Assembly: GCA_002021875.1 (NCBI GenBank)
Contig: CP018627.1
Coordinates: 930,001 to 994,000, forward strand
Direction of reading: 5' to 3'
Source: Streptomyces hygroscopicus
Lineage (GTDB): Bacteria > Actinomycetota > Actinomycetes > Streptomycetales > Streptomycetaceae
DNA: 64,000 bases
The position numbers and the translations under genes were made by a program. Each line of letters begins with the position of its first letter. Within the stretch, counting starts at the first letter, position 1. Below are positions 37,926 to 56,088 of this stretch, in pieces. The notes beneath the pieces are model-generated. The model was not told the DNA's origin and ran no database searches. It worked only from the letters and a program-made list of their open reading frames with translations.

Positions 37926-39032
37926 TCACATCGGCGCATCGCACCGGGCCACCACCCGGTAGGCGTTGGACACCTTCCCCCACCCCGCCAGCGGCTTGAG
38001 CAACAGCCGGTCCAATGCGGTCGCGAGGACCAGCGCGGGGACGGCCGCGAGCAGCAGCGCACAGCGCAGCAGCCAGCGCGCCCGGCCGGGCGGTCGCGGC
38101 AGCGAAGGGGCGTCATCAGGCGGGATGACCGCGTTCAGTGACAGCCATACGGCGCCCAGCAGATCGACCGTGTCGGACGGTTCGCGGTGCTCCTCGGCGA
38201 CGACGGTGAAGCCGAGCGCGTCCAGTTCCTTCCGGAGGTTCGCCACCGGCAGGAAGTGCAGATGCTGGGGCTGCAGCCAGGGCAGCCAGAAGCGGCCGAG
38301 GAGCCGGGCGAACCAGCACTCCGGATCGGGCACCTCGATCAGCAGATGGCCACCGGGGCGCAACGCCCGCCGGGCCGCGCGGAGTTCGGCGCGGGGATCG
38401 GTGCTGTGCTCCAGATAGTGGAACATGCTCACCACGTCGTAGCCCCCGGCCAGGCTCTCCTCGGCCAGCTCGGGGAAGCTGCCACGGATGCCCCGGTCTA
38501 TGCGCCCCGTCCGCTCGGCCAGTTCGACGCCGTCGGTGAAGTCCAGTCCGTCGAAGCGGGTGGCGGGGAAGACGGTACGGGCCACCGCGGGGAAGTGGCC
38601 GTGTCCCGTGCCGACATCGAGCCAGGTCTTCGGGGGCTCGGCGGAGGGCTCCTGGAACATCGCGCGCCGCCGGTACACCTTGTCCCGCCCGGCGAAGAGG
38701 TTGCCGAGTTCGATCTCCCCCATCCCGTCGTAGAAGTCGCGGTAGTAGAACTCCAGGCCGTCGCCGTTCAGCCTGGGGTTCTGGAAGACGTGGCGGCAGT
38801 CGGCGCACGCGTCGAGCGCGAAGCGGCCCGGCTTGCTCTGGTAGCGGTCCCTGGTGCGCAGCCGCCGCTTCAGCCGCGTCGAGCCGCACCAGGGACAGTC
38901 GGTACGGCGCGGTTCGAAGAACCGCCCGGTGCCCCGCGCCAGATCGGCCTGGTAGCCGGGGCGCAGCGCGGCGACGGTCTCGGCGCGCGACGGCTTCGCG
39001 GGCGTGCGTGGTGCGTCGGACGTGCGGCTCAT
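37926..39032 (-). CDS. Zinc-ribbon SAM methyltransferase with C-terminal membrane segment
   Basis: 368 residues from ATG 39032, with GAGGGGGA upstream and an ATGA overlap with the glycosyltransferase stop. An N-terminal zinc ribbon (CPWCGST ... CADC) precedes a class I methyltransferase: TWLDVGTGHGHFPAVA binds SAM, FDGLDFTDGVELAE is motif II, YDVVSMFHYLEHSTDP the post-II region and LRPGGHLLIEVPDP. Near the C-terminus WLLRCALLLAAVPALVLATALDRLL is a membrane helix. Methyltransferases with this ribbon are common in sugar and lipid tailoring. Last gene of the PUFA-like operon; it could methylate the sugar or the acyl head of a membrane-bound glycolipid product. Confidence 0.85.
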   Translation of the reverse strand: MSRTSDAPRTPAKPSRAETVAALRPGYQADLARGTGRFFEPRRTDCPWCGSTRLKRRLRTRDRYQSKPGRFALDACADCRHVFQNPRLNGDGLEFYYRDFYDGMGEIELGNLFAGRDKVYRRRAMFQEPSAEPPKTWLDVGTGHGHFPAVARTVFPATRFDGLDFTDGVELAERTGRIDRGIRGSFPELAEESLAGGYDVVSMFHYLEHSTDPRAELRAARRALRPGGHLLIEVPDPECWFARLLGRFWLPWLQPQHLHFLPVANLRKELDALGFTVVAEEHREPSDTVDLLGAVWLSLNAVIPPDDAPSLPRPPGRARWLLRCALLLAAVPALVLATALDRLLLKPLAGWGKVSNAYRVVARCDAPM

Positions 39033-40285
39033 CGGTCCCCCTCGGGAGTCGGCGTGGCATGGCCACCGGCCTTCGCGGCCAGCGCTTCCAGATGTCCGGC
39101 CGCCGCGACGGCGCCGCCCGCCGCGCGGAACGAGGCCCCGACGCGCTCGGCGGCGATGCGGTACCCCGGTTCGTACAGGACGGTGTCCAGCGCCTCGCCG
39201 AGCCCGGCCGCCCTCGCCCGGCCGAACCTGACCCGGACGCCCGCGCCCGCGTCCACCACCTGCGCGGCCACCACCGGCTGGTCGTCCCGGATGGGGGCCA
39301 CGACGAGCGGAACGCCGTGCCACAGGGTTTCGCAGACCGTGTTGTGGCCCGCGTGGCACACCACCGCGCTCACTCGTTCCAGAAGGGGGAGTTGCGGGAC
39401 GTAGCGGCGCACCAGGACGTCCGAGTCATCCGGGCCGTCCGGGGCGAGTACGCCCTCCGGGTCGACGATGACCGTCTGGAAACGACCGGCCCGGGCCCGT
39501 ACGGCCTCCCGGCACTCGGTGAGGAAGCGCGCCCCGGCATCGGTGTTCGCGGTGCCGAGCGTGACCAGGACGGCCAGGCGCGCGGGGTCCAGCCACTCCC
39601 AGGGGAAGTCCGTCGTGGCCGGCCGCTCGGCGATCGACGGGCCCACGTAACGGATGCGGTCGCCCGCCCGGGCCGGCCGTCCCGCCAGCTCCTCGGTGGT
39701 GAAGGCCAGGACCAGATCCGGTGAGAACCGGGGATCGGCCGTGCTCTCCGGATCGCCGATCCGGCCCCGCGCCTCGTCCATTTGCCCGTCCAGCCAGGCG
39801 TCGATCTTGGGCAGACCGTCCAGCGCGCCCGTGAACTCCGCCGAGGTGGTGGCGGATGTGGCCCAGCGCACCCCCAGCCGTTCGGCCACCAGTCCACCCG
39901 CCACGGTCTGCTGATCGGCGATCACCACATCCGGGCGGAACTCCTCGATGGCCTTGGCGACGCCCGGGGCCATGGCCTCGGCGAGTGGCACCAGGAACCG
40001 CTCCCACAGGAACCTCAGCGCCGCCGGGCCGCGTACGTCCGGTGGCCGGTCCGCTCCGCCCTCGCCCAGCACCGGCCCGGCGCAGTGGTAGACCGTCGCC
40101 CCCTGCCCGGTCAGCCGCCCGACGACCTCGGGCATCCCGGCCCAGGCCACCTGGTGTCCCCGGGCGGTCAGTTCGGCCGCCACGCCGAGGGTGGGGTTGA
40201 CGTGGCCGACCAGTGGCGGCACGACGAAGAGAAAGCGGCGGGGTACGCGGGGTGGGGCTGCCTGCGATCTGCTGGGTTCGCTCAT
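39029..40285 (-). CDS. GT1-family glycosyltransferase (MGT/UGT-like)
   Basis: 418 residues from ATG 40285, overlapping the hydrolase stop by ATGA; the frame is open further up, but only here does the GT-B fold start. N-terminal Rossmann: FLFVVPPLVGHVNPTLGVAAELTARGHQVAWAG, the acceptor-side signature. C-terminal donor site: VSAVVCHAGHNTVCETLWHGVPLVVAPIRDDQPVVA, matching the HxGxxT..E.L..GVP....P..xDQ block that binds UDP- or TDP-sugars. Usual length for the macrolide-glycosyltransferase group. It should glycosylate the polyketide or fatty-acyl product of the operon; sugar identity is unknown and no deoxysugar genes are present. Confidence 0.9.
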   Translation of the reverse strand: MSEPSRSQAAPPRVPRRFLFVVPPLVGHVNPTLGVAAELTARGHQVAWAGMPEVVGRLTGQGATVYHCAGPVLGEGGADRPPDVRGPAALRFLWERFLVPLAEAMAPGVAKAIEEFRPDVVIADQQTVAGGLVAERLGVRWATSATTSAEFTGALDGLPKIDAWLDGQMDEARGRIGDPESTADPRFSPDLVLAFTTEELAGRPARAGDRIRYVGPSIAERPATTDFPWEWLDPARLAVLVTLGTANTDAGARFLTECREAVRARAGRFQTVIVDPEGVLAPDGPDDSDVLVRRYVPQLPLLERVSAVVCHAGHNTVCETLWHGVPLVVAPIRDDQPVVAAQVVDAGAGVRVRFGRARAAGLGEALDTVLYEPGYRIAAERVGASFRAAGGAVAAAGHLEALAAKAGGHATPTPEGDR

Positions 40286-41223
40286 GAGGCATCGGCCTCC
40301 AGGGGTGCGTCCGCCACCGGGGCGCCGGTGCCCGGTTCGCACCCGTGGATCCAGGACAGCAGCAGTTCGCGGATGCGCGTGGGCGCCTCGGCGAGGACCG
40401 AATGCCCCTGTCCCGGCAGGACGACGGTCCGAGTGCCGGGCAGCACCGACTCCAGCCACCGCTCCTGCCCGGCGAGTTCGGAATCGGCGCCGTAGACGGC
40501 CAGCACCGGGCAGCGCACCGCGCCGACCTGCTCCTCGCTCACCACCCGGCTCTCCGGTACGTCCTCGGCGATGGTGGTCGTACGGACCAGGCGGGCGGCC
40601 GACTTGGCCAGCCGTGCGGTGTGGGCGCCCCGGTGGGCGCTGACCCAGGCCAGCGACTCGGCCTCATGGACGACCAGTTCGGCGGCGACGCGCCGGAGGA
40701 TTCCGCTGATCTCGGTCAGCCAGCTCTCGGTGGCGGGTTTCGCCTCGATCACCGCGATCCCGGCCACCCGCTCCGGATGGCGCATGGCGTAGGCGAACGC
40801 CACCGTTCCGCCGAAGCAGTTGCCCACCAGATGGACCGGGCCCGTGATGTCCAGCCGGTCGAGCAGCCGCTCCAGATCGGTGACGAACGTGTCCAGCCGG
40901 TAGCCGGAGCCGGGGCGCTCGCTGCGGCCGTGTCCCCGCTGGTCGTACATCACCACCTCCAGTCCGGCGGCGGCGAGGTCCGGGGCCACCGTGAAGTACC
41001 AGCTGGCGAGGGAGTCGGTGAGCAGACCGTGGATGAGCACGGCGGTGGCGGTGGGCGGACGGCCGTCGGGCGGGGACAGCCGCTGGACATGCAGTCGGAC
41101 GCCGTCCGGCCCGGTATCCGGACCGTCATGGTCCGTGGCATGGTCCGCGTCGTCGCCCGTACCGCGGCCTGTGCCGCTGCCCGTGCCCTCGCAGGTGTCG
41201 CGGCCGGTGTCGATCATCGCCAT
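40282..41223 (-). CDS. Alpha/beta hydrolase with cysteine nucleophile (thioesterase/acyltransferase-like)
   Basis: 313 residues from ATG 41223, 3 bp after the ACP stop. A 40-residue lead rich in Thr/Gly/Asp precedes the fold: AVLIHGLLTDSLASWYFTVAPDLAAAGLEVVMYDQRGHGRSERPG, the oxyanion and strand-4 signatures. The nucleophile elbow reads VGNCFGGTVAFAYA: TGC (about residue 138) replaces the usual Ser of GxSxG. Acid in VYGADSELAGQ and His in LPGQGHSVLAEAP complete a triad. Sitting right after the free ACP in the polyketide operon, it is the best candidate for chain release. A Cys nucleophile in thioesterases often favours transfer to another acceptor over hydrolysis. Confidence 0.85.
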   Translation of the reverse strand: MAMIDTGRDTCEGTGSGTGRGTGDDADHATDHDGPDTGPDGVRLHVQRLSPPDGRPPTATAVLIHGLLTDSLASWYFTVAPDLAAAGLEVVMYDQRGHGRSERPGSGYRLDTFVTDLERLLDRLDITGPVHLVGNCFGGTVAFAYAMRHPERVAGIAVIEAKPATESWLTEISGILRRVAAELVVHEAESLAWVSAHRGAHTARLAKSAARLVRTTTIAEDVPESRVVSEEQVGAVRCPVLAVYGADSELAGQERWLESVLPGTRTVVLPGQGHSVLAEAPTRIRELLLSWIHGCEPGTGAPVADAPLEADAS

Positions 41224-41226
41224 GGG

Positions 41227-41553
41227 TCAGCTCCCCCCGGCTGCCCTGAGGCTCCGGACGACGTACTCGACGAGTTGCCCCACGGCGAGGTCGATGATCT
41301 CGTCGAGCTCCAGGCCCGCCACGAACTCGGCGAAGTTGACCTGTCTGCCGTACCGGGCCTCCAGGCTGCCGGCCAGCGTCACCAGGTCGATGCTCTCCAG
41401 CTCCAGATCCTGGGTGAAGCGGGTCCGCATGGTGACCTCGATCTCGTCGAGGCCGTATTCGTCGAGCATGGCCCGGAGCATCCCGGATATCTCCGCGAGC
41501 ACGGCCGGTGCGTCGACGGGGGGTGCCGAGGCGGTCTGATTGACGGTGGTCAC
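41227..41553 (-). CDS. Free-standing acyl carrier protein
   Basis: 108 residues from GTG 41553, which overlaps the TGA of the second PKS (GTGA). A 15-residue flexible lead, then a four-helix ACP: ISGMLRAMLDEYGLDEIEV, loop, DLELESIDLVTLAGSLEARYG with the phosphopantetheine Ser in ESIDLV, and a last acidic helix. The motif is the (D/E)S(I/L) type of stand-alone ACPs. It probably carries the finished or starter acyl chain between the two megasynthases and the Cys hydrolase. Confidence 0.88.
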   Translation of the reverse strand: MTTVNQTASAPPVDAPAVLAEISGMLRAMLDEYGLDEIEVTMRTRFTQDLELESIDLVTLAGSLEARYGRQVNFAEFVAGLELDEIIDLAVGQLVEYVVRSLRAAGGS

Positions 41554-44500
41554 TGATCGCTCTCCTCGTCCTGTTCCTGGTGGTCCGGGCCGGTCGTCCA
41601 GGCCACGGCGTAGTCCCTGTCCGGCAGTCCGGGCGGGTTGGCGATGGTGATGCAGTGGACCTGGTAGCGGCGCGGGCGCTGCCCGGGGGCGGTGGCCGCC
41701 ACCTCGACGATGAGCCGGGCCGCCGGTGCCGCGTCGCGGTCATCGGCTCCCGGCCGTACCGCGGCGATGGTGAGGTCACGTGGCCGGGCGCGCGGGCCGG
41801 GGCCCTCCGCCATGGCCACCGCCTCTTTCGCGGCCCGGAAGGTGGTGGCCCAGCGGGCGCGCGATCCACCGCCCCCGGCCGTCGCGGCCGCGAGGAGTTC
41901 CCGCTCGGCCCGGCCGAAGGCGGCCGCGAGGGCGTGGTCGTCGCGGTCGGCGACCTCTTCGATGGCGATACCGGGGCCCGGGGCCCCGTGTGCGCGCGGC
42001 ACCACCAGGGCGACTCCGGCCTCGGCCCGGTGTGCCAGCGAGAGGGCCAGTTCGGGCAGGATCCGGCCGTGGACGCCGATGGCGCACGGGCGCCCGTGGG
42101 CGTCGTCGCGTATGCCGATCTCGGCGGGGAAGACCGGGCCTTCGCCGTGGTCCCAGAGCCATCGCCGTACGGCGTCCTTGGCCGCGATCCTGCCCAGCAG
42201 CCACTGTCTGCGGCCGCGTGGCGGCTGGTGTTCATAGGCGGTGCGCTCGTCGCTGCTCAGGTGGTTACGCATGATCAGATCGCGGGAGGCGAGATCGGGC
42301 CAGCGCTCGTGGAGCAGTACCCAGCCGCCCGGCTGGGGCCGGGACAGCGTGTTGCGCTGCGGGAAGCGCTCCACGGGGCGGGTGTCGGGGTGGTTGTCGA
42401 ACCGGCGGTCCTGCCAGCCGGACAGCTCCGCCCACACCTCACCGCCGATCAGCAGTTGGGCGTCGGCCTCCAGCGCGGTATCGGTCAGCGAGGTGATCCT
42501 GATCAGGCACTCCACCGGCGTGCCGGGGCTCGGATGCGGGCCGAAGAAGCGCATCAGACGCATGCCGACCGGGAAGACCACGGTCCGTTCGATGCGGGTC
42601 GCCATGATCCAGTAGCCGAGGAGCTGTCCGACGTTGTCCAGGAGCGCGCCGGGCGCGGGGGGCGTGGTGATCGTGCCGCGGATGTGCGACTCGCCGATCG
42701 CGGTGAGCGCGGTGAGCCCCTGGAAGGCCGGGCCATGAAACATCCAGCGCTCGGCGTAGACGAGATGTGCGGTGTGGTCGGGCCTGCGTTCGGTGGCGGG
42801 GTCGGCGGGCCAGGGGGTGGGGCGGGCCGCGGGATGGTGGGGAGCGACTTCCACGGTGGCGCGGGCGCTGCGGCCGAAGGTGACGGTGTAGTGGGCCGCC
42901 GAGGCGGGGGTCGCGGTGACGGGGACGGTGCTGGGGGGTGCCGCCGTCACCCACTGGTCGAAGCGGGCGCCGTGGACGGCGACGGCCACGGCGCCGCCGG
43001 CCGTCTGCTCCGCCGCCGTCTGCTCCGCCGCCGTCTGCTCCGCCGCCGTCTGCTCCGCCGCCGTCTGCTCCGCCGCTGTGTGCTCCGCCGCGTCCATGAG
43101 GTGCTGGACGATCGTGGTGGCCGGGACCACGGGCCAGCGGTCCGACTCATCGGGCCAGCCGGGGCGTTGGGGGAAGAAGCAGTGGTCATGGAGGTAGGGC
43201 ATGGTCTCGGTGGAGACCCGCAGATCGTGGGTGCGCGGGATCGGTGGGCGGCCTGCCGCGATGACCGCTGTCGCGGTGGTGGCGGTCTCGTCGAGCAGGG
43301 CGAGTAGTTCGGCTTCCCACAACGGTGGTGGGCAATCGTTCCGCGGGGCGGAACGGGTGGGCGCCACCCGACCCGCACCAGGCGACGGCGACCAAGCACC
43401 ACGGCGCGGCCCCGCTCCCCAGGGCACCGCTCGCGATAGCTCATCGCGCAATTCGCTCAGCCTCGGTTCGCTGAACGAGACCAGTGAACCGTTCAGGTCC
43501 AGCCGCACCGGAGGAAGCACTGGCCTCGCTCGCGAGGCTTCAGCCTCGCTTCGCAGTGCCGGATCCACCTCCGCCCCCTCCGTCCACAGGGCCGTGGCCA
43601 CGCGGCGGAGCTGGGAGACGCCGTCGCGGTGGGGGGAGTTGGCGGCCACCACCAGGTGGTCGCGGCCGTGCAGCGTATCGCCGATGAGCGACCCCAGCTG
43701 GCCCGTGCCGACCTGGACGAACGCGCGGAAGCCCGCCTCGTACAGGGCCTCGGTCAGCAGCCGGAAGCGCACCGGCTCCAGCAAGTGGCGGATGAACAGC
43801 TCGCGCACCTCCGCCTCGGTCGCCGGATACGGTGCGGCGGTCGTTCCGGACCAGACGGGGATCCTGGGCGGCAGGAGCAGCTCGAAGCGTTCCGTCACGG
43901 CTCGGATGGGGTCGAGGTAGGGCGCCAGCATCGGGGTGTGGAAACCGGACTGGAAGGGCAGGAGCTGCGCGATCACGCCCTCGGCGCGCAGGGCCCGGAC
44001 GAACTCCTCGACATCGTCGCGCGGTCCGCACACCATCGACTGGCCGGGCGCGTTGTCGTGCGAGAGCACGATCCGGCCGTCCGCCCGCGCCTCCAGCTCC
44101 GCGAGCACCCGTGGCGCACCGGCGCCGAGGACGGCGAAGGCCAGGCCGGGCACTCGCAGCGCGTCGGGGTCGAAGGAATCGAGGAAGGCGTCGACCTCCT
44201 CACCCGCGTAGAGGCCGCCCACGGCCAGCGCGGTCCACTCCCCCACGCTGTGCCCGGCGACCGCGTCCGGTACGACCCCCATCCGCCGCAGCGCCGCGTC
44301 CAGCAGCCGGCCGACGCCGAAAACACCGACACCATGACGGCCGATGTCGCCCACGCGGGCCGCCTCGCCGACGTGGTCCCCGGCGGGGCGGGAGAGCCCG
44401 AAGTACTCGGCGACGCCGTCCACCCGAGGGACGAACTCGGCTTCGAGGCCGGGGAAGACGAAGGCGAGCTTTCCCGTGGCCGCCTTTCTCCTGCCCGCGT

Positions 44501-46217
44501 ATTCCGTGGCCGCCGGGCCCGCGCCGAGCAGCGGCGCGGGGGTGAACCAGATGTCGTTGCGGCCACGCCAGGGACGCCCCTTGGCCACCATGCGCCGGGC
44601 GAGAGCGAGCCGTTTGGCGGTGGGGTCGACGATGCCGAGCCGGGTACGGGCGTCCCGCCCCGTCACCGTCGTCCGTACGGTCGCGTCGTCCACCGCCAGC
44701 ACCTCGGCCAGCCGCTCCGGGGTGTCCGCGGCCAGGGCCAGCACCCGCTCCGGTTCGATGACGACGGTCGTGGCGCGCTGCGCCACCGACACCGGCGGCT
44801 GCTCCAGCACCACATGGGCGTTGATCCCACCGAATCCGAAGGCGTTGACGGCCGCGCGCCGTACGGGCGCCTCCCAGGGCTCGGCCGCGCCGAGCACCGA
44901 GAAGCGGGTGGCCGCCAGCGCCGGATGGGGGTCGTCGCAGTGCAGCGTGGGCAACAGTCGGCCGTGGTGGACCGCGAGGGCGGCCTTCACCAGACCGGCG
45001 ACACCGGCGGCGGGCATGGTGTGGCCGATCATCGACTTCACCGAGCCGATGACGGCCGTCTCACCCTGCGCGCCACCGGGGCCGAACACCTCGGCCAGCG
45101 TGGCCAGTTCAGCCGTGTCCCCGGCGGGCGTCGCGGTGCCGTGCGCCTCCAGCAGCCCGATGGCGCCCGGCTCGCGCGGATCGAGGCCCGCGGCCCGCCA
45201 CGCCTGTCGTACGGCCCGGGTCTGACCGCCCGGGTCCGGGTTGACCAGACCGGTGGCGCGGCCGTCGGAGGCCACACCGGTGCCGCGGATCACCGCGTAG
45301 ACGCGGTCGCCCTCGCGGAGTGCGTCGTCGAGCCGCTTGAGGACGACCACACCTGTGCCCTCTCCGATCAGCAGGCCGTCGGCCGCGCGGTGGAAGGGCC
45401 GGATCCGCTGGGTCGGTGACAGCGCGCGCAGTTGCGAGAACACGCTCCACAAGGTGATGTCGTGGCAGTGGTGCACTCCGCCCGCGAGCATCACATCGCA
45501 CCGGCCCGAGGCCAGCTCGCCCACCGCCTGGTCGACGGCGACGAGCGAGGAGGCGCAGGCGGCGTCCACGGTGTAGGCGGGGCCGCGCAGATCGAGCCGG
45601 TTGGCGATGCGCGAGGCGGCGAGGTTGGGCACCAGGCCGATGGCCGCCTCGGGCCGGTCCGGGCCGAGCCGCTCGGTGAACGCGGCTCGTACGAGGTCGA
45701 GTTGGCCGGGGCCGAGGTCGGGCAGCAGCTCGCCGAGGGTCCGTACGAGCTGGTGAGCCGTGCGCACCCGCTGGTCGAGCCGGACCAGCCCGGGGGTGAG
45801 ATAGCCGCCCCGGCCCAGCACCACGCCCACCCGCTGCCGGTCGGGGAGCCGGTCCGCACCGCCCGCGTCGGCGATGGCCGCCGCCGCGACGCCCAGGGCG
45901 ATCAGCTGGTCGGGGTCGGTGCCGGCCACCGAGTTCGGCATGATCCCGAACCGGGCGGCCTCGATCCGGGCGAACTCGTCCACGAACCCGCCCCGACGGC
46001 AGTACACCCGGTCGGGCGCCGCGGGCGTGTCGCCACCGCCGTCCGGGGCGTAGAAACCGGCATCCCACCGCCCGTCCGGGACGTCGCTGATGGCGTCCAC
46101 GCCGCCGACCAGGTTGCGCCAGTAGGTGTCCAGGTCCGGGGAGCCGGGCAGCAGCACGGACATGCCGACGATGGCCACCGGCGGCTGCCGGTGCGCCTGC
46201 TCGTCCGTCACGCTCAC
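41550..46217 (-). CDS. PUFA-like iterative PKS subunit: KS-AT-DH-PPTase
   Basis: 1555 residues from GTG 46217, overlapping the first PKS stop (GTGA); the open frame further upstream is a shadow of that gene. KS residues about 15-430: Cys221 in DAACASSLVAVD, EAHGTATPAGD, and SVKSMIGHTMPAAG, so all three catalytic residues are present. AT about 560-860, GHSVGEWTAL near 656. A linker with unusual inserts (about 880-970) and a DH/product-template hotdog: LHDHCFF...PVVPATTI near 1010 and ALLDNVGQLLGYW near 1199, split by a TAAEQ repeat (1043-1072). The C-terminal ~215 residues are a 4'-phosphopantetheinyl transferase: GIAIEEV and FRAAKEAVAMA (KEA motif). The PPTase could activate the ACPs of this operon itself. 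Confidence 0.9.
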   Translation of the reverse strand: MSVTDEQAHRQPPVAIVGMSVLLPGSPDLDTYWRNLVGGVDAISDVPDGRWDAGFYAPDGGGDTPAAPDRVYCRRGGFVDEFARIEAARFGIMPNSVAGTDPDQLIALGVAAAAIADAGGADRLPDRQRVGVVLGRGGYLTPGLVRLDQRVRTAHQLVRTLGELLPDLGPGQLDLVRAAFTERLGPDRPEAAIGLVPNLAASRIANRLDLRGPAYTVDAACASSLVAVDQAVGELASGRCDVMLAGGVHHCHDITLWSVFSQLRALSPTQRIRPFHRAADGLLIGEGTGVVVLKRLDDALREGDRVYAVIRGTGVASDGRATGLVNPDPGGQTRAVRQAWRAAGLDPREPGAIGLLEAHGTATPAGDTAELATLAEVFGPGGAQGETAVIGSVKSMIGHTMPAAGVAGLVKAALAVHHGRLLPTLHCDDPHPALAATRFSVLGAAEPWEAPVRRAAVNAFGFGGINAHVVLEQPPVSVAQRATTVVIEPERVLALAADTPERLAEVLAVDDATVRTTVTGRDARTRLGIVDPTAKRLALARRMVAKGRPWRGRNDIWFTPAPLLGAGPAATEYAGRRKAATGKLAFVFPGLEAEFVPRVDGVAEYFGLSRPAGDHVGEAARVGDIGRHGVGVFGVGRLLDAALRRMGVVPDAVAGHSVGEWTALAVGGLYAGEEVDAFLDSFDPDALRVPGLAFAVLGAGAPRVLAELEARADGRIVLSHDNAPGQSMVCGPRDDVEEFVRALRAEGVIAQLLPFQSGFHTPMLAPYLDPIRAVTERFELLLPPRIPVWSGTTAAPYPATEAEVRELFIRHLLEPVRFRLLTEALYEAGFRAFVQVGTGQLGSLIGDTLHGRDHLVVAANSPHRDGVSQLRRVATALWTEGAEVDPALRSEAEASRARPVLPPVRLDLNGSLVSFSEPRLSELRDELSRAVPWGAGPRRGAWSPSPGAGRVAPTRSAPRNDCPPPLWEAELLALLDETATTATAVIAAGRPPIPRTHDLRVSTETMPYLHDHCFFPQRPGWPDESDRWPVVPATTIVQHLMDAAEHTAAEQTAAEQTAAEQTAAEQTAAEQTAGGAVAVAVHGARFDQWVTAAPPSTVPVTATPASAAHYTVTFGRSARATVEVAPHHPAARPTPWPADPATERRPDHTAHLVYAERWMFHGPAFQGLTALTAIGESHIRGTITTPPAPGALLDNVGQLLGYWIMATRIERTVVFPVGMRLMRFFGPHPSPGTPVECLIRITSLTDTALEADAQLLIGGEVWAELSGWQDRRFDNHPDTRPVERFPQRNTLSRPQPGGWVLLHERWPDLASRDLIMRNHLSSDERTAYEHQPPRGRRQWLLGRIAAKDAVRRWLWDHGEGPVFPAEIGIRDDAHGRPCAIGVHGRILPELALSLAHRAEAGVALVVPRAHGAPGPGIAIEEVADRDDHALAAAFGRAERELLAAATAGGGGSRARWATTFRAAKEAVAMAEGPGPRARPRDLTIAAVRPGADDRDAAPAARLIVEVAATAPGQRPRRYQVHCITIANPPGLPDRDYAVAWTTGPDHQEQDEESDQ
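43001..43090. repeat. Six 15-bp tandem repeats inside the DH region
   Basis: The unit CCGTCTGCTCCGCCG occurs five times exactly from 43001 and a sixth, degenerate copy ends at 43090. Read on the coding (minus) strand it encodes TAAEQ repeats within the DH domain of the second PKS. Multiples of 3 keep the frame; copy number is likely to vary among strains. Confidence 0.9.
43338..43369. repeat. Two adjacent in-frame hairpins in the AT-DH linker
   Basis: GTTCCGCGGGGCGGAAC (43338-43354) and GGGTGGGCGCCACCC (43355-43369) are back-to-back 6-bp stems inside the second PKS. Around them (about 43325-43480) the protein is Arg/Pro/Gly-rich (WGAGPRRGAWSPSPGAGR) with no domain likeness. Nearby 43513-43556 carries another palindrome (CCTCGCTCGCGAGG) and the phrase TCAGCCTCGCTTCGC, close to TCAGCCTCGGTTCGC at 43458-43472. 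Looks like small palindromic elements inserted in frame. Confidence 0.5.
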
Positions 46218-49200
46218 CAGTCCGAGGCGGTGTAGACGACGGATCCGATGGACTCCTCGCCCCAGGCCAGCTCGCGCAGCAGCGCCAGCGTGCCCTCCTC
46301 GGGGTCGATGAGCGAGATGCCGCGCCGGGCGTACTCGCGGCTCAGCTCCGGTGTGACCATCCCGCCATGGGCGCCAGTCGGTGCCCATGGGCCCCAGTGC
46401 ACGGTCAGCGCCCGGCGGCCGGTGCGGTCCCGCCAGCGCGCGCCGAGGGTCTCCAGCGTGTCGTTGGCCGCCGCGTAGTCCACCTGGCCGCGGTTGCCGA
46501 GGGCGGCGGCGATGCTGCCGAACAACACGGCGAACGCCGGGGGTTCGGGCAGCTCCGCCAGCGCGTCCAGCAGCGTCCGGGCCCCCTCCACCTTGGTCCC
46601 GTACACCCGCTGGAAGGACTCGGCGGACTTCTCCGCGATCAGCCGGTCCTCGATCACACCGGCCCCGTAGACGACACCGTCCAGCCGTCCGTGGTCGGCG
46701 TGGATCTGCTTCACCGCTTGGAGCACCGCTTCGGCGTCGCGGAAGTCCACCGAGCGATAGCGGACCCGGCCGCCCAGGGCGGTCAGCTCCTCGATGGTCG
46801 CGGCGACCTCCCGCCGCGCCAGGATACGTGCGGCCTCCCGCTGGATCTCGGCGGGCCCCAGCCCGCCCCGGGCCGCGAGCGCCGCGCGCAGGGCCGTCTC
46901 GTCGCGGGCCCCGGCGGTGGCCGGGTCCTCGGGGCCGACGGGCTCCGGCGTACGGCCGAGCAGCTCGATCCGGCAGCGGGCGGCGGACGCGAGAGTGGCG
47001 GCGCACCGCGCGGTAATGCCCCGCGCCCCGCCGACCAGGACCACCACCGCGTCCCGGTCCAGGCCGAGCGCGGCGGCCTCCGCCGCGCCGTCCCCGGCGG
47101 GCCCGGCGCCCGAACCGGCGAGCGCGCCCAGCGGGGCCTCCACGAGGTCCAGCCGGTGGCGCCGCCCTTCCGCGGTGCGCAGCACGACGGGCGTACGGTC
47201 CGGGGCGAGCAACTCGTCGAGCAGGCCGTCGGCCACGGCGTCGGCGAACCCGGGCGCTGCGGTGGAATCGGGCGCTTCGGCGGATCCGGGCGCGGCGGCG
47301 GAACCGAGGGCTTCGGCGGATCCGGCTGCGGCGGCGGAACCGGCCGCGTCGGTGGACCCAGCCACGTCCGCCGCACCGGCCACGTCGGCGGACCCAGGCG
47401 CGTCGGCGGAACCGGCCTCGTCGGTGGACCCGGCCACGTATGCGGACCCGGCCACGTGTGCGGACCCGGCCGCGTCGGCGGGGAACTCCACCAGCCTGGT
47501 GACCAGGTCCGGGTACTCCCTGGCCACCGTGCGGAAGACCCCGCGCAACCCGGCCGTGCGCGCGGTGAGCGGGTCGGCTCGGCGGAGCGCCAGCAGCCAG
47601 TGCGGGGCGCGCCGCAGGGCCGACTGGAGGGCCGTGAACGCCTCCGGCAGCACCGACGCGCCGGAAGTAGCCAGCGGGTCGAGCAGCAGCACACCGTCCA
47701 CCCGGCCGTCGCCCTCGGTGAGCGGATGCCCGGCGGCGAGGCGGACGGCCTCGGCACCGCGCTCGACGAGACGGGCGGCCACCGCCTCGGCCACCCCGTC
47801 ACCCTCCCCGCCGAGCAGGGCGAAACGCCGGCCGGTCAGATCGGGCGGTGCGGTGGCACCGTCGTCGGGTGCGCCGAGGGGCACGGGCACCAGCCGCAGC
47901 CGCTTGGGCGCCACACCGGCCACGACCACGGGCTCGGGCTCGGGCTCGGGCTCGGCCACGGCAACGGGCTCGGCCGCCACATCCTCGGCCACCGGCTCCG
48001 GTTCGTCGGGCGGTGTGGCGGAGGCCGCGGGGGCGGGGGCAAGGCGGGCGCTGAGCCAGTCGGTGACGGCTGCGGTGGTACGGGCCTTGGCCAGCTCCTC
48101 CAGCTCCTCATCGCCCAGAGCGGCGGTGTCCGCGCCCGCCACACCGAGGCGCCGCGCCAACTCGCCGGCGATCTCGGCGCGTTTGATGGAGTCGATGCTG
48201 AGATCGGCTTCGAGATCGAGGTCGGGTTCGATCATGTCGACCGGATAGCCGGTGCGTTCGCTGATGATCTCGGAGACCGCGCGCAGCACATCGGGCCCGG
48301 TGGCGGGCGCGGGCGGGGCAGAGGCGGGAGACACGGCGGCCACCGGCGCGGCGGCCCCTGAGGTGGCGGCCACCGCGGCAGTGGCCACCGGCACGGCGGC
48401 CACCGGGCCGAGCTCGGCGGGTAGGGACGCGGCCGTGGCGACCGGAGCTGGTGGCGACGCGTGCCGTTCGCCCGGCGCCCCTCCGAAGTAGGTGAGGAGC
48501 ACATCGCGCTGGGCGGCGATCATCTCCCGGCTGGTCCTCAGGAACTCCGAGATCAGGGCGTCCCTGCCCTCGTACTCGCCGCCACCCGTCCGATCGGTCT
48601 GGCTCACGGTCGCCTCCATGACACGTCGGGCCGGTGCCAGCGCACCGGGAAGGAGCTCACCGTCCGCGGTGCGGACCAGGTGTCCGTCGACCGTCCAGCC
48701 GGGCCGTTTCGGTGGTGGGGCGGATCCCGCCGCCACTGCGTCACGGCCGTGGAAAAGCCAGGCCGTACGCACCGGAACACCGGCGACGGCCAGCCGGGCG
48801 AGGGTGTCGAGAAACCCCCGCGGTCCGGCGGAGCCGCTACGCCGTCCCTCGCAGGCGAGGGCGAGGTGCGGACGGCCGTCGAGGATCTCCCCCACCAGCC
48901 GGGTGAGCACCGTCCCCGGACCGGCCTCCACGAAGGTCCGCGCGCCCGCCTCGTACATGGCCTCGATCTGTGCCACGAAGCGGACGGGCGCGCCGATCTG
49001 GGCGGCGAGTTCGGCGCGGATGGCGTCCGGCTCCGTGCCGTGCGGGGCGGCGGTGCGGTTCGCCCAGACGGGGAACTCGGCCGCCCGCACCGGATGGCCG
49101 GCCAGCGCCTCGGCGAACCGCGCACCGGCCCCGGCCACCAGCGGGCTGTGGAAGGCGCAGGCCACCGGGATCCGTTTGACCGAGTGCCCGGCCGCCCGCA

Positions 49201-52200
49201 GCAGCCGTACCGCCTCCTGGACGTCCCGCTCGGGCCCGGAGATCACGGTCTGCCGTGGCGCGTTGTGGTTGGCGGTCACCACGCGCTCGGCGAGCCCGGC
49301 CGTCCGCAGCACCGGCTCGACCTCGCCGGGGGCCGCGGTCACGGCAGCCATGGTGCCGGGCTCCTCCCCGGCGGCCTCGGCGGCGCCGAGGATGGCTGCC
49401 GCCCGCTCGGCGCTCAACTGCGGCAGCGTACGGGGGTCGAGGGCGCCCGCGGCGCACAGTGCGACCAGCTCGCCGTAGCTGTGTCCGGCCGCCATGTCGG
49501 GCCGAACCCCGGCGGAGGTCAGCAGGGTGTACGCGGCGAGCCCGACCATACCCAGTGCCGGCTGGGCCACCCGGGTGTCGGTGATGGCGGTGCGCTGTGC
49601 CGCCTGCCCGGCCTCGTCGAAGGCGGCCGGGGGATACAGCGCGTCGGCGTAGGCGCGTCCGTGGCGCAACTGACGCTGGAGTTCCGGGAAGGTGACGAAG
49701 GCGTCGGCGAACATCCCGGGCCGCTGGCTGCCCTGCCCGGGGAAGAGGAAGGCGACCTTGCCGCGCTGCGGCTCACCCCCAGCCTCTTCGGCCGCGTCCG
49801 GGGCGATGTGCGGCCCGTCCGTTCCGCGTGGCCCCGGGCCCGGCGGATCGCCCGCGAGCACCTGACGTAATCGTGCGGCCAGATCGTCCAGGTCCGAGGC
49901 CACCACGGCCACCCGGACCGGCTCCTGCCCGGCGTCGGCCCGCCGGGAGGCGGTCAGCGCGACGTCGCGCAGCCGCCATGGCCGTCCTGCCGTGTCATTG
50001 GCCATGAGCTGGTCGAGTGTCTCCTGGACCACCCGCAGCGCCGCCGCCCGGTCGGCCCCGCGGAAGAGGAACAGCTCGGCGGGCCAGGCGTCCAGCCCCT
50101 GTGCGGGCGGCGCTCCCCGGCCGTGTGCCGCCAGCACCACATGGAAGTTGGTCCCGCCGAAGCCGAACGCGCTGACCCCGGCAACCCGTTCGGCGGGCGC
50201 GGCGGCCCATGGCCGGGCCCGGGTGTGGAAGGCGAAGGGGCTGCGGTCCGCGTCCCATGCCTCGTTGGGCCTGGTCAGATGCAGTGTCGGCGGTGTGATG
50301 CCGGTGTACAGCGACATCGCGGCCTTCACCAGTCCGGCGAGCCCCGCGGCGCATTTGGTGTGCCCGATCTGGGACTTCACCGAGCCCAGCGCACACCCGC
50401 CCGGTGCGGCCCCGGCGTCGGTGAACACCTCGCCCAGGACGGTGAGTTCGGTGCGGTCGCCGACGACCGTGCCGGTGCCGTGTGCCTCGAGCAGGCCGAC
50501 GTCGGCGGGCGAGAGGTGGGCATTGGCGTACGCGCGCTCCAGCGCGGCCCGCTGTCCCTCGGGGCGCGGGGCGGTCAGCCCGAGCGAGCGGCCGTCGCTG
50601 GAGGAGCCGACGCCCTTGATGACGCCGTAGACGCGGTCGCCGTCCCGTTCGGCGTCGGCCAGCCGTTTGAGGACGACGCAGGCGACGCCCTCGCCGAGCG
50701 CGATTCCGTCGGCCGAGCTGTCGAAGGTGCGGGAGCGGCCCGTCGGGGAGAGGGCGTGCACCGAGGAGAAGAGCACATAGTCGTTGATGCCGTTGTGCAG
50801 ATCGGCGCCGCCGCACAGTACGAGGTCGCTGGTGCCGGCGGTCAGCTCCTTGCAGGCCACGTCCACGGCGGCCAGCGATGACGCGCATGCCGCGTCCACG
50901 GTGTAGTTGGCGCCGCCGAGGTCGAGCCGGTTGGCGATCCGCCCGGAGATGACGTTGGCGAGCATGCCGGGGAAGGAGTCCTCGGTGAGCCGCGGGAGCT
51001 GGTCCGCCAGGTCCCGCGGCACCTCGCGGACGTAGCGTGGCAGGACGGCGCGCAGCGTCTGGGCGTTGGACAGATCGCTGCCCGCCTCGGCGCCGAAGAC
51101 CACGGAGGTGCGGGAGCGGTCGAAGGTCCGACCGCCGTCGCCGGGTGCGCCGTATCCGGCGTCGTCCAGGGCCCGGCGGGCGGCCTCCAGGGCCAGCAGC
51201 TGGACGGGTTCGATGCTGCCGAGCGAGGCCGGGGGGATGCCGTAGCGCAGCGGGTCGAAGGGGACGGGTGGCAGAAAGCCACCCCATTTGGAGGCGGAGG
51301 CACCGTCCTTGTCGCCCGTGTAGTGGACGGCCGGGTCCCAGCGCTCGGCGGGCACTTCGGTGACGGCGTCCACACCGCCCACCACATTGGCCCAGAACGA
51401 GGCGAGGTCGGGCGCCTGCGGAAACATGCACGCCATGCCGACCACGGCCACGTCCAGCGGCGCGGGCGCCTCGGCCGCCGCCGGGGCCGAGGCCACGCCC
51501 AGGCGCTCGCACACCTCCTCGGCGCGTGCGGTGAGGAAGTTGGCGGCGCCGGGGCCCACCGCATGGTGCAGGGCGTCGATCGTGGTGGTGGCCGAGCGCA
51601 GCACGGCGACCTGTCCGGCCATGAACATCCCGCCGCTGAGCTGGTGTTCCTCGTCCACCGAAGCCAACGCGCCGTCGGGCCCGCGGTCCATGCCCTTGCT
51701 GGCGATCCTCAGCCGTCCCACATTCAGCCGCTCCAGCCGCTCCCAGACTTCCCGGTCCGGCAGGCCCTCGTTCCGCAGCCGTTCCTTGACGGTGTCGAAG
51801 CTCTCGGTGAAGGGGCTGGGCACGCAGCGTGTGGCATGGCCGGGGGCGGTCTCCAGCAGCACGGTGTGCTCGGCGGCCACCACGTGGCGCTGGAAGAGCG
51901 GCTGTAAGGCGCCGTGCGCCACCGCCTCCTCGGTGAAGAGATAGGCGGTGCCCATCAGCGAGCCGATGGCGACGCCGCGCCGGGTGAGCGGGGCGGTGAG
52001 CGCGGCCACCATCGCGGCGGAGCGTTCGTCGTGCACTCCCCCGGCGAAGAAGATCTCGATACCCGCGCCCTCGGTGCCGTCGGTCCCGTCGGTGCCGTCG
52101 GTGCCGTGGGTGTTCGCCATATGACGCGGGTCGTGCGCGGTGTCGTCGAGGAAGTCCTCGACGACGGCGATCTGGGCCTCCCATAACGGGAAGCTGTTGC

Positions 52201-53527
52201 GCGGCCCCACGTGGCCGCCGCATTCGGAGCCCTCGAAGACGAACCGCCGGGCCCCGGCCTGGAGGAACTGGCGCAGCAGCCCCGGCGAGGGCACATGCAG
52301 ATAGGTGGCGATGCCGTCCCGCTCCAGCGCCTTGGCCTGGGACGGCCGTCCGCCCGCGATGATGGCGTGGCTGGGGCGGATCTCCCGTACGGCCTCGAGC
52401 TGGGCGTTCCTCATCTCCTCGGGTGCGAAGCCGAGGACCCCGACCCCCCAGGGGCGTCCGTCCAGCGCGGCCGCGGCCTCCTCCAGCATGGTGCGCGCCT
52501 GCTCACGTCCGGCCAGGGCGAGCGCGATGAACGGCAGCGCTCCCCCGGCGGCGACGGCGGAGGCGAACGCGCCCTGGTCGCTGACCCTGGTCATCGGACC
52601 CTGTGCGATGGGCAGCCGGGTGCCGAGGCGGGTGCTCAGCGGGGCGCCGGGGCGCAGCGCCGAGACGGCGGAGCCGTTCCGTCCGGCCTCGTGCGCGGAC
52701 TTCCGGATGGCGTCGGTGATGCCCCGTACGGTGCGGCCCACATCTCGCCATCGCTCGGCGAACTGGGCTGCCAGGAAGCCGTCCTGACCCACCGTCAGAT
52801 TTGGCTCGATGTGCTGGGTGGCGCGCCCCCGGCGCCGCAGGACGCGGTGCCCGTCGAGGACGGTGGTCTCGGAGCCGTCCATGGAGCGGATGGCGGCGGC
52901 CCGGTCCTCCGGGAGCCCCGATTCGGTGAGCAGGGCCAGCTGGGTGTCGAGCACGACCCCGGCCGCGCCGCCGAGTACCGACGCCGCGGCGGTGTGTGGG
53001 CCGATGCCGCCGCAGGCCCACACCGGTAACGACACCCGGGGGTCGGCGAGGAGCCGCTGCAGCAGGACGAAGGTGCCCAACACCCCGATCCGCCCGCCAC
53101 TCTCACTGCCCCGGGCGATCAGCCCGTGCGCTCCGGCACGGACGGCTTCGAGCGCCTCGTCCAGGTCGGTGACCTCGGCCAGCACTCGGCAGCGGCCGGA
53201 TACGGCCTCCACCGGCCAGGGCGAGTTCACCCCGAGCACCACCGTATGCGGACCGGGCGCGCCACCCTCCGGGCTGCCGGTGGCCGGGGCGTCCGGCAGG
53301 TCCGCGGGGGTGAGGCGGCAGCCCGCAGCGGCCCGCACGCCGTACCGCCCGTCGGCCACCCACTCGCCGATGTCCTGCCACGCCTGGAGGGCCTCGCGGC
53401 CCGTTGTGCCCAGGTCGAGAACGCCGAGGCCGCCCGCGCGGCTGACCGCTGCGGCGAGTCTGGCGTCCGGTTCCCCGAAGGGAGTGATGCCGATGACAAG
53501 ATCGCCGGCGTCCACGGCGGATGACAT
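46214..53527 (-). CDS. PUFA-like iterative PKS subunit: tandem NMO/PfaD-like ER-KS-AT-ACP-KR
   Basis: 2437 residues from ATG 53527 (GGAG 5 bp upstream); a GTG at 53578 in the same frame is poorer. Residues about 10-270: a first FMN barrel (VIGITPFGEPDARLAAAVSRAGG, VWACGGIGPHTAAASVLGGAAGVVLDT). About 300-650: a second nitronate-monooxygenase/PfaD-like barrel (LPIAQGPMTRVSDQG, FEGSECGGHVGPR). KS about 695-1110, Cys881 in DAACASSLAAVD, HGTGT, IGHTKCAAG. AT about 1235-1540 with GHSYGELVAL near 1349. One ACP, DLSIDSIKRAE, Ser near 1780: the DSIK motif of PUFA synthases. KR about 2150-2400 (GGARGITA, FGSIAAALGNRGQVDYAAAN). The order, with enoyl reductase and KR but a single ACP, is PUFA-synthase-like. 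Four TTA codons: 53027-53029, 52184-52186, 51905-51907, 49868-49870. First gene of the operon. Confidence 0.92.
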   Translation of the reverse strand: MSSAVDAGDLVIGITPFGEPDARLAAAVSRAGGLGVLDLGTTGREALQAWQDIGEWVADGRYGVRAAAGCRLTPADLPDAPATGSPEGGAPGPHTVVLGVNSPWPVEAVSGRCRVLAEVTDLDEALEAVRAGAHGLIARGSESGGRIGVLGTFVLLQRLLADPRVSLPVWACGGIGPHTAAASVLGGAAGVVLDTQLALLTESGLPEDRAAAIRSMDGSETTVLDGHRVLRRRGRATQHIEPNLTVGQDGFLAAQFAERWRDVGRTVRGITDAIRKSAHEAGRNGSAVSALRPGAPLSTRLGTRLPIAQGPMTRVSDQGAFASAVAAGGALPFIALALAGREQARTMLEEAAAALDGRPWGVGVLGFAPEEMRNAQLEAVREIRPSHAIIAGGRPSQAKALERDGIATYLHVPSPGLLRQFLQAGARRFVFEGSECGGHVGPRNSFPLWEAQIAVVEDFLDDTAHDPRHMANTHGTDGTDGTDGTEGAGIEIFFAGGVHDERSAAMVAALTAPLTRRGVAIGSLMGTAYLFTEEAVAHGALQPLFQRHVVAAEHTVLLETAPGHATRCVPSPFTESFDTVKERLRNEGLPDREVWERLERLNVGRLRIASKGMDRGPDGALASVDEEHQLSGGMFMAGQVAVLRSATTTIDALHHAVGPGAANFLTARAEEVCERLGVASAPAAAEAPAPLDVAVVGMACMFPQAPDLASFWANVVGGVDAVTEVPAERWDPAVHYTGDKDGASASKWGGFLPPVPFDPLRYGIPPASLGSIEPVQLLALEAARRALDDAGYGAPGDGGRTFDRSRTSVVFGAEAGSDLSNAQTLRAVLPRYVREVPRDLADQLPRLTEDSFPGMLANVISGRIANRLDLGGANYTVDAACASSLAAVDVACKELTAGTSDLVLCGGADLHNGINDYVLFSSVHALSPTGRSRTFDSSADGIALGEGVACVVLKRLADAERDGDRVYGVIKGVGSSSDGRSLGLTAPRPEGQRAALERAYANAHLSPADVGLLEAHGTGTVVGDRTELTVLGEVFTDAGAAPGGCALGSVKSQIGHTKCAAGLAGLVKAAMSLYTGITPPTLHLTRPNEAWDADRSPFAFHTRARPWAAAPAERVAGVSAFGFGGTNFHVVLAAHGRGAPPAQGLDAWPAELFLFRGADRAAALRVVQETLDQLMANDTAGRPWRLRDVALTASRRADAGQEPVRVAVVASDLDDLAARLRQVLAGDPPGPGPRGTDGPHIAPDAAEEAGGEPQRGKVAFLFPGQGSQRPGMFADAFVTFPELQRQLRHGRAYADALYPPAAFDEAGQAAQRTAITDTRVAQPALGMVGLAAYTLLTSAGVRPDMAAGHSYGELVALCAAGALDPRTLPQLSAERAAAILGAAEAAGEEPGTMAAVTAAPGEVEPVLRTAGLAERVVTANHNAPRQTVISGPERDVQEAVRLLRAAGHSVKRIPVACAFHSPLVAGAGARFAEALAGHPVRAAEFPVWANRTAAPHGTEPDAIRAELAAQIGAPVRFVAQIEAMYEAGARTFVEAGPGTVLTRLVGEILDGRPHLALACEGRRSGSAGPRGFLDTLARLAVAGVPVRTAWLFHGRDAVAAGSAPPPKRPGWTVDGHLVRTADGELLPGALAPARRVMEATVSQTDRTGGGEYEGRDALISEFLRTSREMIAAQRDVLLTYFGGAPGERHASPPAPVATAASLPAELGPVAAVPVATAAVAATSGAAAPVAAVSPASAPPAPATGPDVLRAVSEIISERTGYPVDMIEPDLDLEADLSIDSIKRAEIAGELARRLGVAGADTAALGDEELEELAKARTTAAVTDWLSARLAPAPAASATPPDEPEPVAEDVAAEPVAVAEPEPEPEPVVVAGVAPKRLRLVPVPLGAPDDGATAPPDLTGRRFALLGGEGDGVAEAVAARLVERGAEAVRLAAGHPLTEGDGRVDGVLLLDPLATSGASVLPEAFTALQSALRRAPHWLLALRRADPLTARTAGLRGVFRTVAREYPDLVTRLVEFPADAAGSAHVAGSAYVAGSTDEAGSADAPGSADVAGAADVAGSTDAAGSAAAAGSAEALGSAAAPGSAEAPDSTAAPGFADAVADGLLDELLAPDRTPVVLRTAEGRRHRLDLVEAPLGALAGSGAGPAGDGAAEAAALGLDRDAVVVLVGGARGITARCAATLASAARCRIELLGRTPEPVGPEDPATAGARDETALRAALAARGGLGPAEIQREAARILARREVAATIEELTALGGRVRYRSVDFRDAEAVLQAVKQIHADHGRLDGVVYGAGVIEDRLIAEKSAESFQRVYGTKVEGARTLLDALAELPEPPAFAVLFGSIAAALGNRGQVDYAAANDTLETLGARWRDRTGRRALTVHWGPWAPTGAHGGMVTPELSREYARRGISLIDPEEGTLALLRELAWGEESIGSVVYTASDW
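47240..47473. repeat. Thirteen 18-bp repeats encoding a hexapeptide linker
   Basis: The ACP-KR linker of the first PKS (residues about 2019-2096) is a run of 13 hexapeptides of the form (A/P/L)-G-S-(A/T)-x-x: AGSAHV, AGSAYV, AGSTDE, AGSADA, PGSADV and so on to PGFADA. At DNA level this is an imperfect 18-bp tandem repeat. Likely a flexible tether of variable length. Confidence 0.88.
52073..52109. repeat. 9-bp repeats in the second enoyl-reductase domain
   Basis: Four 9-bp units close to GGTGCCGTC/GGTCCCGTC encode the run GTDGTDGTDGTEG in the first PKS, on a surface loop of the second FMN barrel just after the GSECGGH block. It is another in-frame slippage tract in this gene. Confidence 0.75.
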
Positions 53528-55638: not shown

Positions 55639-56088
55639 GGTGTTCTCGCATTCGCAAGCGCTGTGAAAAGGGGCTACGTATGCGAGCACCACGCGGCGAC
55701 CAAGCCGGGAAAACGGGTGCGGCCCTCCGAAGGGTGAGGGACGGCTGATGCACCGAGGTCGCATTCACGCGGGTCACGGGCGGCAAGAAGGCCGGCTACG
55801 ACGTGACGGGCTACGGCTTGTGCCGTACCGCGCGATGATCGCGAACCTCAGATACGCAACGTCCACCTCTATCGGAGACAACAGGACCCGGGAAGTGTAG
55901 CGCAGCCGAGGTGCGTGATGTCGTGTGCGCGGCCGGGCGGGGCCGCCGTGCCACCTTCCTGCCAACCTTTCCCGCGCCCCCCGCTTCCGCGGACGACCGC
56001 CGTTACGATCACCCGCGTGACCTGGCGGCGCACCGGTTCCGAGGCGCGCCGCCCGTTTCGGATCGCATCGGATCAAAGGGCGTGAGAA
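55639..56088. promoter_or_regulatory. Divergent leader region with possible ABC-F attenuator
   Basis: 450 bp between the leftward ABC-F gene and the rightward secreted protein. On the ABC-F side are two small hairpins: TACGGC-TTGT-GCCGTA (55812-55827) and a CCCTC/GAGGG stem (55723-55740). A possible short leader peptide reading VDVAYLRFAIIARYGT begins with GTG before them. ABC-F resistance genes are often controlled by such leader attenuation; this copy is inference. Nothing else coding is seen. Confidence 0.4.

Follow-up and report, generated by a model that had tools for sequence, protein, structure and literature searches.

A conserved six-gene operon of Streptomyces hygroscopicus that probably joins an ArsA/ArsD-type iterative fatty acid synthase to glycolipid tailoring enzymes

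The closest described relatives of the genes reported here are the Ars systems, in which ArsA reportedly synthesises the C23-C25 fatty acids that the type III polyketide synthases (PKSs) ArsB and ArsC use for phenolic lipids (part of PMC4824345 on these enzymes). In the classification of Shulse and Allen, Beijerinckia was placed together with Azotobacter as Type P, and the passages on this type state that Beijerinckia was not found to make phenolic lipids (PMC3098273). The passages of that paper on Type L, the type of SCO0124-0129 with EPA as predicted product, describe pfaD as a separate gene and pfaBC as a fusion with a chain-length factor (CLF) and two dehydratase (DH) domains. Homologues of SCO0126 and SCO0127 have been tabulated as KS/AT/ACP/KR/DH and KS/AT proteins, respectively (table in PMC5932044). 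Here we describe an operon that probably encodes an iterative type I fatty acid synthase of the ArsA/ArsD type, wired to a set of glycolipid tailoring enzymes.

The window, i.e. the whole stretch of 64,000 nucleotides that was analysed, corresponds to bases 930001-994000 of a single 12.0-Mb contig. ORF and start-codon analysis of this window revealed six tightly packed genes on the minus strand at positions 37926-53527, and all genes and domains of the operon mentioned below are encoded by that strand. The first gene, g1 (46214-53527), has an ATG start directly after GGAGAAAAC and encodes a megasynthase of 2437 aa with the order ER1-ER2-KS-AT-ACP-KR. It is followed by g2 (41550-46217) for a megasynthase of 1555 aa with the order KS-AT-DH-PPTase, and by the gene for a free acyl carrier protein (41227-41553; Pfam PP-binding) with an ELESIDLV site. 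The remaining genes encode an alpha/beta hydrolase (40282-41223; Pfam Abhydrolase_1) with a Cys nucleophile in the motif GNCFGG and His274, a GT1 glycosyltransferase (GT; 39029-40285; Pfam UDPGT), and a SAM methyltransferase (MT; 37926-39032; Pfam Methyltransf_23) with a zinc ribbon (CPWC...CADC) and a hydrophobic C-terminal stretch. The actual starts of the GT and MT genes lie downstream of the starts of the longest ORFs. Four of the junctions are 4-bp overlaps and the ACP-hydrolase junction is a 3-bp gap; judged from the overlaps and the gene order, the six genes are taken to form one operon. A sequence-only reading of this DNA had proposed precisely this composition, with all junctions within 4 bp, and both proposals were confirmed, the former by Pfam matches, structure models and alignments. 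The signal scan detected no sigma-70-like promoter and no terminator-like site below the MT gene, and in total 6 terminator-like sites versus 2.1 expected. A protein with two ABC ATPase domains, for which close matches were seen only in near relatives, is encoded just upstream of the operon (53965-55764).

Pfam matches on g1 comprised NMO, KS, AT, ACP and KR, and the first NMO-like domain is also backed by such matches. The model of residues 1-688 showed two alternating strand/helix halves with a mean pLDDT of 91. Active-site motifs were counted in 74 g1 sequences of more than 2050 aa, taken from 83 loci with the window included and three Ars-like loci excluded. The checked catalytic positions were invariant in KS1 (50276-51454; Cys-His-His), AT1 (48776-49750; GHSYG), the in-line ACP (48086-48280; SIDSIK), the KR (46382-47050; Lys-Ser-Tyr-Asn plus the nucleotide-binding loop) and the FabK-like enoyl reductase ER2 (51503-52654, residues 292-675; GSECGGHVGP). 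AT1 carries an Arg 25 residues past the Ser in 74/74 sequences, which we take to be malonyl-binding. ER1 (52838-53500, residues 10-230) is a degenerate NMO/FabK-like barrel that retains a Glu-x-Gly-Gly loop, and the His of its GGH loop is replaced by Arg in the window. At this position Arg was found in 60 of the 74 sequences, Pro in 7, Lys in 2 and His in only 1. The possibility that both enoyl reductases are active was therefore rejected, and the operon probably encodes one enoyl reductase (ER2) and one degenerate copy. The sequence-only reading had assumed tandem enoyl reductases, and this assumption holds for ER2 with its intact FabK-type His but not for ER1. Its concern that FMN/NADPH-binding residues of the NMO or KR domains might be missing did not materialise for ER2 and the KR. 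One ACP motif was present in 57 of the 74 g1 proteins, including that of the window, two in 15 and none in 2. The proposed use of a single in-line ACP plus a free ACP in an iterative multifunctional synthase is supported.

On g2, Pfam matched a KS, an AT and, below threshold, an ACPS domain. The DH (42273-43265), which had no Pfam match, was modelled as a PKS-type double hotdog and is the single dehydratase region of g2. Conservation was assessed in 71 complete g2 proteins of more than 1300 aa from the 83 loci, window included, among which a few appear frame-shifted and the entry for locus L050 is really g1. The DH residues His1012 and Asp1194 were each kept in 69/71, and the active-site Cys of KS2 (44937-46181) in 70/71. 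KS2 is the only KS of g2, and no CLF-type KS was seen in the operon. The AT2 core (43707-44333; GHSVG) kept its Ser and His in all 71 sequences and has no conserved Arg at the position seen in AT1: no commonly conserved Arg occurs in residues 667-699, residue 688 being Arg in 25/71. The PPTase-like domain (41796-42221) has GIAIEE in the window instead of the usual GIDIEE. The corresponding Asp is kept in 59/71 proteins and absent from 12, namely those of the window and loci L001, L003, L004, L006, L007, L011, L016, L022, L048, L050 and L057. In nine of these (the window, L001, L003, L004, L006, L007, L011, L016 and L022) the Trp before AAKEA is also replaced by Arg. From its sequence the window PPTase looks impaired, so that another PPTase would have to serve. 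A genome scan for the ACPS family missed the domain in the window and gave 4 matches at other places in the genome, including one in a second copy of the operon (copy 2, see below).

The tailoring enzymes were compared in 71 sequences each for the ACP, hydrolase and GT and in 55 for the MT (window included, from the 83 loci). The hydrolase nucleophile was Ser in 60/71 sequences and Cys in 11/71, the window among the latter, and a Cys nucleophile as a trait of the family was therefore rejected. Nine of the 11 Cys hydrolases belong to exactly the nine loci in which both PPTase motifs are changed; the other two (L005 and L058) occur with unchanged PPTase motifs. This natural Ser-to-Cys switch and the PPTase change offer ready comparisons for studies on the off-loading chemistry. 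The best solved relatives of the GT are labelled only ‘glycosyltransferase’, followed by the oleandomycin glycosyltransferase and the UDP-glucosyltransferase YjiC.

A scan of species genomes yielded 218 confirmed loci, of which the best 79 were compared. The genes for g1, g2, ACP, hydrolase and GT were all present in this order in 69 of the 79 loci; the other 10 are cut short by a contig end, which lies in g1 or g2 or, for L050, shortly after g1. The recurrence of this order in related loci, which the sequence-only reading had suggested as a check, shows that the arrangement is more than chance. The MT gene came next after the GT gene in 53 of the 69 complete loci, and 10 of the 16 loci in which it did not follow are from Pseudonocardiales. 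In L028 the MT could not be scored because the contig ends 153 bases past the GT gene, and in L076 (Catenulispora) the MT gene is located upstream. Most, but not all, junctions were within 4 bp (g1-g2 in 45/69, hydrolase-GT in 60/69; start codons chosen by script). In 11 further stretches the g2, ACP, hydrolase and GT genes occurred in order without exception, accompanied by an MT gene in 7, by a gene for an ABC exporter like that next to copy 2 in 3, and by neither in 1. Genes flanking the operon were common mainly to near relatives. Among 295 sampled Streptomyces genomes, 77, including the present one, encode the hydrolase at E 1e-40 or better; 65 of these score over 220 bits and 12 form a more distant set with 38-44% identity. 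Gene order was checked in 11 of these 77 genomes besides the present one. The closest match of the first 690 residues of g1, among the matches listed, was from Streptomyces sp. 11-1-2 (97%). Of 1296 plasmid records with any match to g1, two covered at least 80% of it. One of these, that of Streptomyces sp. NBC_00984 (L083), is a linear plasmid of 846 kb; it has all six genes in order, and the operon is flanked on either side by transposase genes. An ORF of about 250 residues between the GT and MT genes (L107 14951-15740, L108 14984-15899, L039 23880-24659 and L062 23640-24404) occurs in the more distant operon type, Allokutzneria and Crossiella; it is absent from the window, since the two genes overlap there.

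Copy 2 is a divergent five-gene operon at 9589425-9603606 of the same genome. It has no detectable MT gene and is followed by a gene for an ABC half-exporter, the whole spanning G000:C1:9589425-9605480 (L093 3426-19481). Identities with the window are 58-62% for g1, 51-66% for g2, 57% for the ACP, 52% for the hydrolase and 59% for the GT. The KS1 of copy 2 groups with that of Amycolatopsis keratiniphila (support 95/92) and the window KS1 with that of S. hokutonensis (99/94), which argues against a recent duplication as the origin of copy 2. Among three relatives whose hydrolases are 96% identical, G081 and G176 have both copies and G122 has one, and a second hydrolase copy was found in 3 of the 26 genomes behind other loci (L021, L027 and L052). 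These data bear on the view that the window copy is decaying, with a lost PPTase and a hydrolase switched to Cys, while copy 2 does the work. This would fit the fact that both PPTase motifs, at the Asp and at the position preceding AAKEA, are changed in the window and in 8 other loci, and that copy 2 retains both motifs and a Ser nucleophile. However, the other checked catalytic motifs of the window copy are intact. Moreover, the genomes behind 7 of the 8 changed loci could be searched, and each of these draft genomes contained one hydrolase copy at E 1e-30, so that the changed copy persists alone in them. A rescue of the changed PPTase by copy 2 is thereby refuted as a general rule, and we regard decay of the window copy as distinctly unlikely.

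As with the parts, their order and their conservation, the kinship of the operon with ArsA- and ArsD-like proteins can be read directly from the sequences. The comparison set consisted of proteins from Beijerinckia, Methylosinus and one Rhodobacteraceae record. The g1 protein aligns collinearly with its ArsA-like counterpart from Beijerinckia pBIND02, with 42% identity over residues 9-1595, 38% over residues 2148-2435 and weaker similarity around the ACP, and residues 1149-1480 of g2 are 30% identical to the Beijerinckia ArsD-like DH-PPTase. In a careful KS tree, from which four long rows of 34 were excluded, KS1 joined the three ArsA-like KS domains with a support of 97/92, and KS2 formed a separate clade. 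The sequence-only reading held that the operon mixes the plans of polyunsaturated fatty acid (PUFA) synthases and enediyne PKSs. A mixture it may be called, but it is better described as the Ars plan with an added KS-AT, since both Ars-type proteins occur in the Beijerinckia Type P locus. The Rhodobacteraceae SC52 plasmid locus (L082 9680-24299), where an ArsA-like synthase is encoded beside a TauD-like dioxygenase, a methyltransferase and an AT-DH-PPTase protein, represents another tailoring variant.

The same data speak to the question whether the operon encodes an EPA-type PUFA synthase, as SCO0124-0129 is labelled, with added glycosylation. The best NCBIfam model for g1 is indeed TIGR02813 (PfaA), and a joint clade of KS1 with the PfaA-like KS domains costs 9.5 log units and was not rejected (AU p 0.09); the PfaA-like and CLF labels in this tree were assigned from ACP number, sequence and missing Cys rather than from annotation. 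However, g1 scores 862.5 bits, below the PfaA cut-off of 1010.1, while the ArsA-like protein passes it with 1156 bits, and the PfaA model thus does not separate PUFA from Ars types. In addition, the single dehydratase region of g2 fits a PKS-type model rather than two FabA-like dehydratase/isomerase domains, the KS of g2 keeps its Cys and is separated from those KS-like domains in the reference loci that lack this residue (taken as CLF), and FabK ranks above PfaD for ER2. Neither the PUFA synthase as the underlying plan nor the likeness to SCO0124-0129, both drawn in the sequence-only reading, was upheld, the latter because the homologues of SCO0126 and SCO0127 appear with a different domain order in the published table; SCO0124-0129 was therefore rejected as a model. 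An EPA-type product is, in our opinion, highly unlikely.

A polyene made in the fashion of enediyne PKSs and then glycosylated was also considered, since the KS-AT-ACP-KR order plus DH and PPTase domains resembles that of such enzymes. Enediyne PKSs, however, are single polypeptides with the order KS-AT-ACP-KR-DH-PPTase and no enoyl reductase. Here, the domains are split over two proteins, the checked motifs of the in-line ER2 are conserved in 74/74 sequences, and KS1 groups with ArsA-like KS domains, all of which makes a polyene very improbable indeed. Lastly, the kinship to ArsA/ArsD-like proteins might suggest that, as in Azotobacter, a type III PKS takes over the chain to give a phenolic lipid, here decorated by the GT and MT, but this is hardly credible and largely refuted for the present genome, in which the scan found no Chal_sti_synt_C match (the search control was positive in 3/14 genomes).

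For the favoured synthase of the ArsA/ArsD type the following route can be envisaged. AT1 would load malonyl groups onto the in-line ACP and KS1 would elongate the chain, which may then be reduced by the KR, the PKS-type DH and the FabK-like ER2 to a long, mainly saturated (or 3-hydroxy) chain, with ER1 being structural or vestigial. KS2-AT2, joined ahead of the ArsD-like DH-PPTase, may perform a special condensation, and AT2, which lacks the Arg taken as malonyl-binding, might transfer an acyl chain to an acceptor such as the free ACP, which would then hand it on. GT1 would attach a sugar to a hydroxyl of the chain, in the simplest case the 3-OH that remains if the final round of synthesis ends with the KR step, the MT would add a methyl, and the Ser/Cys hydrolase would release or transfer the acyl group. 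The glycosylated and methylated acyl product foreseen in the sequence-only reading thus stands as probable; the chain length and saturation, the sugar, the position of the methyl and the role of every tailoring enzyme are predictions from the gene content. The literature search of open-licence PMC papers returned no product for this operon family.

Glucolipsin, fattiviracin and cycloviracin are described in part of PMC4365757 as glucosides of hydroxylated long chains with C- or O-methyls, in which the carboxyl is esterified to glucose C6 in an ester dimer. It is conceivable, though on balance unlikely, that the present operon type lies behind such macrodilactone glycolipids, a suggestion that draws on analogy. 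In that case the synthase would leave a long 3-hydroxyacyl chain on the free ACP, and GT1 would glucosylate the 3-OH of this chain. The MT would introduce the methyl, either on the chain or on the sugar, and the Ser/Cys hydrolase would complete the dimer by forming an ester between the carboxyl and the 6-OH of a second unit. Operons with an MT gene would then correspond to methylated members and those with an ABC exporter gene to unmethylated ones, and the widespread operon could be linked to the antiviral glycolipids described in the 1990s. No gene cluster for these three compounds was found in the titles of open-licence PMC papers, and S. microflavus, S. purpurogeniscleroticus, N. vaccinii and Kibdelosporangium were not named among the matches listed (best 120 of 5452, 120 of 2467 and 120 of 731 matches; best 79 of 218 loci).

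The window g1 contains four TTA codons (residues 167, 448, 541 and 1220), the other five operon genes and copy 2 none; among the 8129 codons of 13 further large ORFs in the window, 2 are TTA. In the orthologues of g1, 65 TTA codons occur in 181,510 codons, and the operon as a whole contains one or more TTA codons in 47 of 80 loci. Because translation of TTA codons depends on the bldA tRNA, this suggests developmental timing and possible bldA control of the synthase in this strain. The sporulation-timed expression of the SCO0124-29 cluster mentioned in part of PMC2374992 is not transferable to the window operon, as it concerns a different cluster.

With the hydrolase present in 77 of 295 Streptomyces genomes and no product found, the operon appears to represent a common actinomycete lipid pathway that is easily mislabelled as PUFA synthesis, and its placement with ArsA/ArsD leads to the concrete prediction of a long saturated or 3-hydroxy chain that is glycosylated and methylated. 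Compared with known systems, it resembles SCO0124-0129 in being a secondary lipid synthase of an actinomycete that comprises two large proteins, and it shares the KS-AT-ACP-KR core with the Pfa PUFA synthases and enediyne PKSs. It differs from the latter two in that no CLF was seen, in its one ACP and in-line FabK-like enoyl reductase, and in the split over two proteins; the tandem ACPs of PfaA and the KS-CLF didomain of PfaC have no counterpart in the window. Type M of Shulse and Allen (S. avermitilis, Actinosynnema, Frankia and Renibacterium) is a published category that possibly covers this operon family, a guess based on the occurrence of the names S. avermitilis and Actinosynnema sp. among the hydrolase matches listed (best 120). 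Macrodilactone glycolipids have features that the gene set of the window could make. Closest of all is the Beijerinckia Type P locus, which likewise encodes a tandem ER-KS-AT-ACP-KR protein and a DH-PPTase in a second protein, and where, as in Methylosinus, the first of two loops like those of g1 has a non-His residue (Gln or Arg) and the second is intact; in the Rhodobacteraceae protein a pattern search detected only one loop. The number of ACP motifs is two in Beijerinckia and one in Methylosinus, and the window has one in-line ACP. The ArsD-like protein of Beijerinckia lacks a KS-AT, whereas in the window the DH-PPTase is only the C-terminal part of g2, behind the added KS2-AT2. The Beijerinckia neighbours include two genes annotated as 3-oxoacyl-ACP synthase III C-terminal, which we interpret as type III PKS genes, whereas the window adds the ACP, hydrolase, GT1 and MT. 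The operon is best regarded as part of a widespread lipid pathway, in which a variant form of the Ars-type secondary fatty acid synthase occurs together with enzymes for glycolipid tailoring.
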